Shown here: in pieces, positions 50,692 to 64,000 of the stretch | Numbering within the stretch: the stretch's first letter is position 1 | Layout: the number at the start of each line of letters is the position of its first letter | Origin: SAR202 cluster bacterium | GTDB taxonomy: Bacteria; Chloroflexota; Dehalococcoidia; Lucifugimonadales; GCA-2712585 | NCBI GenBank assembly: GCA_016872285.1 | Contig: VGZZ01000008.1 | Coordinates: 1-64,000 of the forward strand | DNA length: 64,000 bases | Direction of reading: 5' to 3' | Translations under genes and position numbers: made by a program | The notes under the pieces: generated by a model | What the model saw: the letters and a program-made list of their open reading frames with translations, nothing else | What the model was told of the DNA's origin: nothing | The model's database searches: none

Positions 50692-51552
50692 CTAATACTC
50701 AGCTAACTCCTCAAACCACTCCCTCCACTTACCCTCCGACTGCGTCCCATAGCCGCTCCGAAACGCAATCACCCCCTGGTGGTCCACCGCCACCTTGGAC
50801 GACTGCACCGTAATGTTATAGTCCCGCACAACGTCCCTGTGCGTCGTCGCCATAGGCCATGAATAGCCATTGGCGTCCCTGAACTCCCTAATCTTCGATT
50901 CACTTTCGCTGGGGTCCGTGTCTATCGCCAGCACTGATACCTTATCCTGGTACTGCGAGTACATCTCCTTTATGTGCCGAAACTCGGCACGGCAGTGCGG
51001 TCACCAACTAGCGAAGAAATACAGTATCAGCGGCCTACCCTCAAAGCTCGCCAGCGTCAGCCTTTCTCCATCCACCGTAATAACCTCAAAATCCGGCGCC
51101 GAATTGCCAACTTTGCTCCCCGTCGGCGGCCGCTGTGTAGGCGAAGGCGCCGTAGTAGAAGTAGGCGACGGCGTAGGAATGGGAGTCGGGGTTGGAAGTG
51201 TAGCCCCCGTTGTCGGCGTTGGGGTTGATGTTGCCGCCGGTGTCTGTGTCACGCCCGGCGTGGCGCTGCCGACAATAACCGGGCTTGGTGTAGCCGTCGC
51301 CGCCGGAGGTGGGCTGCCCGTCGCAACCGTCGGCGACGCCGTTGATGTGGCCATCGACCCGGAGGATATGACAACGGTGCCGCTATTAGCTGAAGTCGGA
51401 GTAGAGCTTGGCGTCGGCTGAGCCGTCGGGGTTTCAGTAGCCGGCTGAGTCGCGGACAGCCCCTCCGCGGAACACGCCGCCAGAACAAGCACTAGCCCTC
51501 CGATAACAATGCCTAGCCCTATCCGCCTTCGCAGGTATCCTCTAATAGTCAT
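50692..51552 (-). CDS. selenocysteine-containing thioredoxin-fold (TlpA/redoxin-like) lipoprotein
   Basis: 286 residues when UGA 51003-51001 is read as selenocysteine (Sec184). ATG 51552 is chosen over an in-frame TTG at 51570. Signal peptide with lipobox L-V-L-A-A-C27, then a long Thr/Pro/Ser/Ala linker (30-145). The TlpA/redoxin domain begins G-N-S-A-P-D-F near 150. Redox motif F-F-A-S-W-U-P-H-C: U replaces the attacking Cys of W-C-x-x-C and the resolving Cys187 is kept. After the UGA, 102 codons continue in frame with redoxin-like sequence (A-I-D-T-D, V-D-H-Q-G-V-I). The usual cis-Pro before the last strands is absent (V-Q-S-S-K). A hairpin lies 10 nt after the UGA. Alternative: a nonsense pseudogene (TGC/TGT to TGA). 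A membrane-tethered thiol/selenol oxidoreductase is inferred. Confidence 0.8.
50974..50990 (-). promoter_or_regulatory. SECIS-like hairpin downstream of UGA
   Basis: On the minus strand, 10 nt after the UGA, the coding RNA reads GUGCCGA-GUU-UCGGCAC, a perfect 7-bp stem with a three-base GUU loop. The loop starts 17 nt after the UGA, within the range known for bacterial SECIS elements bound by SelB. Confidence 0.65.
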
Positions 51553-51674
51553 ACTCGCGCCGCTTAACAAGAATCTTCTGTATAAAACTATAGATGAACC
51601 TTAGCCGCATAACGATACTTACAGGCCAATTAGCAGCAACTGTAAGAAAAGCTTAATAAAAACGTTCCTAAAAC

Positions 51675-57486: not shown

Positions 57487-58626
57487 TTGCCCGGCGCTAG
57501 AAAGGGTCTTGTAGTCCTCGGCTCCACAGGCTCCATTGGGCGGCAGACCCTAGACACTGTCCGCGCCTTCCCGGACCACTTTCAGGTGGCCGGCCTTGCC
57601 GCCGGCAACAACGTCGACCTCCTCCAGCAGCAAATCGCCGAATTCAAGCCGTCAATGGTCTATTGCGCCAGGTCCCAGGACGCCAGGTCCATCGCCCAGG
57701 GCGCCAAGATTACCCCTATGGAGGAGATGGTCCGCAATCCAGGCGTAGATATAGTCATGGCCGGCACTGTGGGCAGGGCTGGCCTCCTCCCCACCATCAG
57801 CGCCCTCCAGGCTGGGCGGACCGTCTGCCTCGCCAACAAAGAGGTCATCATCATGGCCGGCGAGATGGTGACTAAGCTATCACGAAAGGGCGGCGCACTA
57901 CTGCCCGTGGACAGCGAGCCCAGCGCCATCTGGCAATGCCTCCAGGGCGAAGACCAGCCCATCCGGCGCCTCATCATCACCGCCTCCGGCGGCCCCTTCC
58001 GCAAGACCCCCCTGGCCGATCTCGAGAAGGTTTCACCTGAGCAGGCCCTCAAGCACCCCACCTGGAAGATGGGTAAGCGCATCACCATCGACTCCTCTAC
58101 CCTCATGAACAAAGGCTTCGAGGTCATAGAGGCCCGGTGGCTCTTCAACGTGGACTGGCCCCAAATCGAGGTCGTAGTCCACCCCCAAAGCCTGGTTCAC
58201 TCGATGGTCGAGTTCGCCGATGGTTCCGTGAAGGCCCAGGTCGGCCCCCCCGATATGCGGCTCCCTATCCAGTACGCCATGCTCTACCCTGAGCGCCGAC
58301 CCAATGAGTCTCTGCCCAGATTTGATATCACTGTGCCTACCAGCATGACTTTCGAGCCTCTGGACCCCGCCAGGTATCCCTGCTTCACCCTGGCGCTGGA
58401 AGCTGGCAAGAAGGGCGGCACCTATCCCGCCGTCCTCAGCGCCGCCGACGAGGTGGCCGTACAACTCTACCTTGATAATCGCATTCGTTTCACTGACATA
58501 CCTAAAGTTGTCGAGCGAACTCTAGAAGCCCACACTCCCTCCCCAGCCGACGACCTGGAAGCCATCCTTGGCGCCGATGACTGGGCCAGGGCGCGGGCTC
58601 GAGAAACCGCCGGGGTTAAATCATGA
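57487..58626 (+). CDS. dxr: 1-deoxy-D-xylulose 5-phosphate reductoisomerase
   Basis: 379 residues from TTG. NADPH motif G-S-T-G-S-I-G near 11-17; substrate and metal loop D-S-E-P-S-A-I-W-Q near 138; H-P-T-W-K-M-G-K near 190; S-S-T-L-M-N-K-G near 205 and V-H-P-Q-S near 232. It makes MEP from DXP, committing carbon to isoprenoids. In the D-S-E-H-S/N-A loop of most enzymes the His (E. coli H153) is Pro here; the other active-site His residues are kept. Overlaps rseP by 4 nt. Confidence 0.95.
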   Translation: MPGARKGLVVLGSTGSIGRQTLDTVRAFPDHFQVAGLAAGNNVDLLQQQIAEFKPSMVYCARSQDARSIAQGAKITPMEEMVRNPGVDIVMAGTVGRAGLLPTISALQAGRTVCLANKEVIIMAGEMVTKLSRKGGALLPVDSEPSAIWQCLQGEDQPIRRLIITASGGPFRKTPLADLEKVSPEQALKHPTWKMGKRITIDSSTLMNKGFEVIEARWLFNVDWPQIEVVVHPQSLVHSMVEFADGSVKAQVGPPDMRLPIQYAMLYPERRPNESLPRFDITVPTSMTFEPLDPARYPCFTLALEAGKKGGTYPAVLSAADEVAVQLYLDNRIRFTDIPKVVERTLEAHTPSPADDLEAILGADDWARARARETAGVKS

Positions 58627-62847: not shown

Positions 62848-63999
62848 CTACGAAAAGGCCGCCCGCGCCGCCGTCAGCATCTCTCTCTCCTCCCCGGCCA
62901 GCACCGTCCGCGGGTCCAGCAGCACCATCCCATCCTCAATACGCCCCACCACCGGCGGGCGATGCCGCCGCAGCCGCGCCGCTACTCCGTCCGCCCCACC
63001 CTCAACCCCCTGACAGTCCAGCGCCACCGCCCACGACCGCAGCGTCTCCCCCGGCAGACTCCCTCCCCCAATTGCCGACACCGAGGGCACAACCTGTGCC
63101 CTCTCTCCCAACGTCCGCTTCCACCGTATAGCTCTGCGCTTTAACTCCGCCTCCGATGCAGCAATCATCGCCCACACCGGCACCTTGGATATAGCCTCTC
63201 CCTTGAGATAATGCAGCAGCGTCGCCGTAAGACCCGCCAGGCTCATCTTATCGATGCGTATAGCCCGAGCCAGCGGGTGACTCGACAGCCTGTCCACCAT
63301 CTCCTTCCGCCCCACAATTATCCCCGCCTGCGGCCCTCCCAGCAGCTTATCCCCCGAGAAAAATACCAGGTCGGCGCCGTCGCGGACGCTGTCCTGAGGC
63401 CGAGGCTCGTACGCCAGACCGTAAGGCCGCGTGTCCAGCAAACAGCCGCTCCCGATGTCATGCAGCGCCGGAATCCCACGCCTCTTGCCCAGCGCCACCA
63501 GCTCCGCCGTCTCCGGCGCGTGCGTGAACCCTACCACTCGAAAGTTGCTGGCATGGACTTTCAACAACGCCGCCGTGTTCTCGGAAATCGCCGATTCATA
63601 ATCGGCCACATACGTGCGGTTGGTCGTCCCCACCTCCACCAGCTTGGCACCGCTCTGCGCCAGCACCGACGGCACCCTGAACCCGCCTCCAATCTCCACT
63701 GCCTCTCCCCTGGAAACTATCACCTCCCTGCCCTGCGCTACCGCTGTCAGCCCCAGCAGCACCGCCGACGCGTTATTGTTCACCACCAGGCAAGCCTCAG
63801 CGCCAGTAAGCTGCTGCAAGATGGGTTGCAAATGCGCCTGCCGCGATCCCCTTCGTCCATCACCCAAATCCAACTCCAGGTTGCTATACCCCTGCGCCGC
63901 CTCCATCATCGCCTCAATGGCCTCTCGACTCAGAGGCGCCCTGCCCAGGTTGGTGTGTATGATGACGCCCGTCGCATTAATCGCCCTCCGTGGCTGCAC
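62848..63999 (-). CDS. selA: L-seryl-tRNA(Sec) selenium transferase, partial
   Basis: 383 residues visible; the gene runs off the window edge, so its N-terminus is missing (SelA is usually about 450-470). It converts seryl-tRNA(Sec) to selenocysteyl-tRNA(Sec) using selenophosphate. I-N-A-T-G-V-I-I-H-T-N-L-G-R-A-P-L near the visible start; A-L-H-D-I-G-S-G-C near 178; the PLP lysine in F-F-S-G-D-K-L-L-G-G-P-Q-A-G. Its presence implies the organism inserts selenocysteine, supporting the UGA reading at 51003. Confidence 0.93.
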   Translation of the reverse strand: MQPRRAINATGVIIHTNLGRAPLSREAIEAMMEAAQGYSNLELDLGDGRRGSRQAHLQPILQQLTGAEACLVVNNNASAVLLGLTAVAQGREVIVSRGEAVEIGGGFRVPSVLAQSGAKLVEVGTTNRTYVADYESAISENTAALLKVHASNFRVVGFTHAPETAELVALGKRRGIPALHDIGSGCLLDTRPYGLAYEPRPQDSVRDGADLVFFSGDKLLGGPQAGIIVGRKEMVDRLSSHPLARAIRIDKMSLAGLTATLLHYLKGEAISKVPVWAMIAASEAELKRRAIRWKRTLGERAQVVPSVSAIGGGSLPGETLRSWAVALDCQGVEGGADGVAARLRRHRPPVVGRIEDGMVLLDPRTVLAGEEREMLTAARAAFS

Positions 64000-64000
64000 C

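Follow-up and report, generated by a model that had tools for sequence, protein, structure and literature searches.

A conserved subfamily of predicted lipoprotein selenoenzymes with a redoxin UxxC active site and without the cis-proline in a SAR202 cluster bacterium and its relatives

Redoxin selenoproteins with a UxxC active site have been known since 2004-2008. In this established class (PMC1088965, PMC2398784, PMC13188914), predicted thiol-disulfide oxidoreductases of the redoxin/thioredoxin fold carry selenocysteine (Sec, U) for the first Cys of CxxC; Table 2 of PMC2398784 gives 321 Trx-like 1 and 225 Prx-like 1 GOS sequences, and Table 1 of PMC13188914 lists Prx-like and Trx-like 1 UxxC selenoproteins (PF00578 or COG0526). 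The gene described here, found in a window of 64,000 nucleotides (the whole stretch of DNA that was analysed), encodes a protein with these features, having an AhpC-TSA/redoxin domain with UxxC (WUPHC) as in the Prx-like thiol:disulfide oxidoreductases. In a comparison based on Pfam/COG assignment, motif and accession only, the parts of these reports that describe the class do not state a lipoprotein anchor, a Pro/Thr linker, loss of the cis-Pro or a two-Sec tandem form. The initial annotation, which had called the protein an unusual selenoprotein type, thus went too far; what is new is the variant, with its lipid anchor, Pro/Thr linker and cis-Pro loss, and some members of the clade are likely among the published metagenomic UxxC reads.

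The ResA/StoA/TlpA proteins share with the window protein the fold (ResA structures including 1st9, Z about 22, ~1.4 Å, 21-23% identity), a predicted extracytoplasmic location and the CxxC spacing, and the ResA variant 3c71 has the same motif, CPHC, as the UPHC found here; they differ in that the window protein has Sec for Cys, Ser for the cis-Pro, and a lipid anchor with a long linker. The pneumococcal proteins Etrx1 and Etrx2 (4hqs, 2yp6; Etrx2 Z about 18.5) are also lipid-anchored extracellular TlpA-like domains, but have Cys where the window protein has Sec. They belong to the CcdA/MsrAB2 system, whereas no DsbD/CcdA match (PF02683) was obtained in the host genome of the window. Sec-containing redoxin-fold families are likewise represented in NCBIfam by WAxxUGC_long ResA-like (NF041054) and redoxin_TUGYCR (NF053656), whose Sec motifs differ; the window protein scored 26 of 300 bits and 22 of 100 bits against them and 73.3 of 170 bits against the ResA model, and none of the NCBIfam models reached its cut-off.

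The coordinates of the gene and its parts are given below. In the ORF listing made with translation table 11 the gene is split into 51001-51570 (minus), ending in FFASW, and 50692-50964 (minus), as described in the initial annotation; with TGA translated as U the two pieces are one frame, in which 102 codons follow the TGA before the stop. When the joined protein was compared with Pfam, the matches to AhpC-TSA (73 bits, 2e-20; cut-off 26) and Redoxin (57 bits) both ran through the TGA, which lies exactly on the attacking Cys of the W-C-x-x-C motif (ASW-U-PHC) in a ResA/TlpA-like redoxin domain, so that the proposed position of U and the redoxin-like nature of the tail were both borne out. Ordinary annotation would therefore split one intact gene for a predicted membrane-anchored Sec redox protein. 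An Rfam search of the window gave no match, and promoter and terminator scans found nothing.

Positions in the window of the Sec gene, its predicted parts and selA
Feature	Position	Strand	Basis
Complete selenoprotein gene (predicted)	50692..51552	-	286 codons including Sec184, ATG start, TAG stop; AhpC-TSA/Redoxin match spans the TGA
Signal peptide, lipobox LAA-C27 (predicted lipid-anchored Cys27)	51472..51552	-	Sequence; family lipobox count
Pro/Thr/Ser/Ala-rich linker	51118..51471	-	Residues 28-145 (118 residues), 76% P/T/S/A
Redoxin domain, ResA/TlpA-like fold, QSSK (residues 250-253) replacing the cis-Pro	50692..51111	-	Pfam, alignment, structure model
UGA read as Sec (U184, predicted), nucleophile of WUPHC	51001..51003	-	Translation; same-column TGA in homologs
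Predicted SECIS hairpin GUGCCGA-GUU-UCGGCAC	50974..50990	-	Starts 10 nt after the UGA, apical loop 16-17 nt after the UGA
selA	62869..64000 (to contig position 64203)	-	557 bits; cut only by the right edge of the window

To place the TGA in its family, 197 genomes from the order of the host were searched for the domain, and the best 30 matches, each with exactly one TGA, and 80 further stretches were examined. With the nucleophile column located by a profile built from the alignment of the homologs, its codon among the examined matches was TGA in 118, TGC or TGT in 28, TGG in one, and TAA or TAG in none; removal of overlapping or duplicate loci reduced the 118 TGA matches to 109, with 108 distinct downstream sequences. 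TGA and Cys codons thus alternate at one column, the homologs of both kinds that the initial annotation had suggested looking for, and the recurrence of TGA at one codon is far beyond chance. The codon differences between close pairs downstream of the UGA were distributed over the three positions as 71/57/216, and by this third-position bias the tail after the UGA is translated; purifying selection acts on the family across the UGA codon. TGA members were also found elsewhere in the class (L204 and L206-L208), all with hairpins, that of L206 being weak. One locus (L173; G090:C282, codon at 1070, minus strand), which is one copy of a tandem pair, reads TGG (Trp) at a codon that is TGA in the near-identical L170, owing either to recent mutation or to an error in the assembly.

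The hairpin of the window gene (-13.2 kcal/mol, spacing 17, loop GUU) and those of 105 of the 108 relatives satisfy the bSECIS model (G in the first two positions of the loop, a distance of 16-37 nt to the UGA, MFE <= -7.5). Most Cys controls also pass this generic criterion somewhere, and it was dropped as evidence by itself; the discriminating facts are therefore the fixed position of the hairpin and its covariation. Within a fixed frame (stem at positions 13-18 and 24-29, numbered from the T of the UGA, loop AGUUN), 107 of 108 TGA genes had a hairpin with 5 or more pairs, with 18 different 5' stems; the Cys-codon members lacked the hairpin. For 35 sequences less than 72% identical, stem pairing was 84% versus 74% in 1000 column-wise synonymous shuffles, and the compensatory cells numbered 31 versus 15 ± 1.7 (0/1000 shuffles as high). 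Since such shuffles do not preserve relatedness, we give this reduced set together with a control in which the partners were slid by 1-3 columns, whereupon pairing fell to 30-55%. The Leu codon at the loop was TTR in 88 of 88 cases, compared with 150 of 1042 (14.4%) elsewhere (P=9e-67), and the Glu codon was GAG in 98 of 98; judging from these counts, the hairpin loop constrains codon choice. The sequence and structural context of UGA-184 fits Sec decoding directed by the immediately downstream hairpin.

The host assembly (2.61 Mb, 83 contigs, 95.6% complete) contains, in addition to the selA that the initial annotation had placed in the same window, selB (365 bits), selD (376 bits) and a tRNA-Sec with a UCA anticodon (76 bits), so that the absence of selB, selC and selD, by which the selenoprotein reading was to be refuted, did not materialise; the host SelD itself contains Sec at a classical in-frame UGA (GUASK). 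Two readings deny Sec at this codon. A redoxin pseudogene inactivated by a nonsense TGA would agree with the split produced by ordinary calling, but has a practically negligible probability: relatives across dozens of families have TGA at this very codon and never TAA or TAG, a conservation by which we consider the pseudogene reading refuted, and the frame is open to its end, with third-position-biased change past the TGA and a covarying hairpin. The random stops in homologs that the initial annotation had named as a second refuting condition were likewise not borne out. Alternatively, another UCA-reading tRNA or a genome-wide code change might insert Cys or Trp at UGA, in keeping with the relatives that have Cys at the same column. 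We reject this as very improbable, given the full Sec machinery and a hairpin that follows the UGA and is missing from the Cys-codon versions; moreover, UGA is still a stop in the host, since TGA terminates 5 of the 44 ORFs of at least 250 aa in the window (for example dxr at 57487-58626), and it also ends 33 of 113 homologous ORFs. With the four machinery components, the TGA/Cys alternation, the covarying hairpin and the synonymous-biased change after the UGA, the proposal of a hidden selenoprotein held up, and we are highly confident that the gene encodes a lipoprotein selenoenzyme, an envelope redoxin whose UGA-184 is predicted to be decoded by SelB and tRNA-Sec via the downstream hairpin. 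By this comparative evidence the family is a genuine and conserved subfamily of predicted selenoproteins that has had no name so far.

The N-terminus of the protein (MTIRGYLRRRIGLGIVIGGLVLVLAAC) has the positive stretch, hydrophobic core and lipobox Cys of a bacterial lipoprotein, and a lipobox-like Cys was found in 92 of the 102 Sec homologs whose 5' end is complete, the remainder having mostly a hydrophobic N-terminus that lacks the Cys; the proposed lipid-anchored, extracytoplasmic location is thus consistent with the signals in the sequence, and the long Pro/Thr linker was present as described. A structure model with Cys substituted for Sec (pLDDT 95.5) has the TlpA-like thioredoxin fold and matched best the ResA-like structure 4nmu (Z 23.3, 1.2 Å over 135 residues). 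In agreement with the missing cis-Pro noted initially, the residue aligned with the ResA cis-Pro is Ser251, within QSSK, and most of the clade, Sec members and most Cys members alike, has a QSTK/QSSK-like motif at this site. As for the accompanying suggestion of a divergent subfamily, nearly all members of a large clade lack the cis-Pro, so that its loss is a subfamily marker, not the peculiarity of one divergent gene. With Ser or Thr in place of the cis-Pro, followed by a largely conserved Lys, the protein probably binds its substrate differently from classical TlpA/ResA. We found no study on a cis-Pro-less UxxC thioredoxin active site in the literature searched, and the site represents a concrete variation of that active site.

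The most likely function is that of an extracytoplasmic selenol-disulfide oxidoreductase. Two more specific roles were weighed against it. A mainly peroxidatic, peroxiredoxin-like role in the envelope deserves some weight while being the less probable reading; AhpC-TSA is the best Pfam family and the AhpE and PrxQ structures reach Z about 17-18, but the motif is the thioredoxin-type UxxC rather than the TxxC/U of peroxiredoxins, and ResA-type structures fit better (Z 22-23). We judge it unlikely that the protein serves apocytochrome c maturation as its dedicated ResA/CcmG reductase. ResA is the closest solved fold and the host genome has two PF01578 cytochrome c assembly proteins, but one of the two genes (contig C5) adjoins a CcmH-like ORF, and ~4 kb from it the same contig encodes a redoxin of the Cys type (WCPPC) that has the cis-Pro; the Sec gene is located elsewhere, lacks the cis-Pro and occurs in 2-3 copies in many genomes.

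As a selenol-disulfide oxidoreductase, the protein would be exported as an unfolded chain and lipidated at Cys27, so that a flexible linker of ~118 residues would hold the redoxin domain at the outer face of the membrane. There the selenolate of Sec184 would attack an oxidised substrate, a disulfide or possibly a peroxide, and Cys187 would resolve the intermediate as an Se-S bond before some donor re-reduces the enzyme. Under selenium shortage, the lipoprotein would be cut short at the UGA and lack the active site. No VKOR match (PF07884) was obtained in the host genome, and no conserved operon partner was seen in 21 neighbourhoods except the gene's own tandem copies. It is probable that this lineage invests selenium beyond the cytoplasmic membrane.

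In a maximum-likelihood tree of 138 columns with the nucleophile masked, in which the inner forks are weak, a 98% branch separated 31 Cys redoxins with cis-Pro from 113 Sec rows without cis-Pro, 3 Sec rows with Pro, 12 Cys rows and the TGG row; by this tree the Sec subfamily forms one clade, within which the Cys members are scattered over several places. A full-length selA was found in 79 of the 84 genomes with a listed TGA member, and the five without a full match (G104, G041, G080 with a partial one, G110 and G154) are mostly fragmented or incomplete. Among lineages with the Cys form selA was absent in two of three: the genomes of the Cys members L051 (G031, 97% complete) and L184 (G042, 91%) are without a full selA. 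So is G098 (79% complete), which has the Cys form, yet its congeners G073, G085 and G023 have selA and use Cys nonetheless; because three of the four g26 genomes that carry the Cys form keep selA, Sec is dispensable. As Sec/Cys replacement and loss of the SECIS hairpin are visible on one tree, the question of when and why Sec is kept becomes testable. The family, split or truncated by annotation pipelines, is hereby rescued in a large uncultured lineage.

When the host RpsB was compared with 16 named genomes, the two best matches were Chloroflexi MAGs at 57% and 56%, and a Bacillota genome also reached 56%; this is compatible with membership of Chloroflexota but is no proof of it. The scan of the contigs of named genomes back-translated Cys codons only, and accordingly brought up no TGA members of the clade. 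Six records with archaeal titles (L054-L059; Woesearchaeota, Aenigmatarchaeota, AR5 and Caldarchaeum) are Cys members of the clade without cis-Pro, having Ala, Thr or Ser at that column, which suggests horizontal transfer. A Krumholzibacteriia contig (L074, position 4602) holds a tandem redoxin array with one TGA member (FANWUPVC) and a similar hairpin.

Two or three adjacent copies of the Sec gene occur in many genomes, and members of the subfamily are, by their sequences, mostly lipoproteins with a Pro/Thr linker, often in tandem. In three loci (L124 in G103, L133 in G080 and L127 in G010) a single ORF contains two complete redoxin domains, joined by Pro/Thr linkers, and two UGAs, each with its own hairpin. 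L124 and L133 come from congeners and are placed apart from L127 on the tree, so that at least two fusion or duplication events likely lie behind the two-Sec ORFs. A wider proposal, which we regard as doubtful, is that these proteins constitute a clade-wide class of surface selenoenzymes, in which cis-Pro loss together with Sec would give a chemistry unlike that of TlpA/ResA and repeated tandem duplication, leading up to the two-Sec polypeptides, would produce a multi-selenol array on the cell surface for extracellular redox chemistry (for example on oxidised organic matter, metals or peroxides).

Redoxin selenoproteins are, by prediction, richly represented in the host: of the 11 AhpC-TSA-family loci in its genome, 5 have a TGA in frame at the position of the active-site Cys. 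The four loci other than the window gene, at C3:69980, C6:58763, C12:38814 and C3:27022 (L223, L226, L228 and L232), have the motifs FTGGUTN, ASWUMC, GNWUSYC and TYCUINC, the last with NHL-like repeats. In several families selA lies ~8-15 kb from the Sec gene (G000, G014, G050, G093, G011, G174 and the genomes of genus g66).
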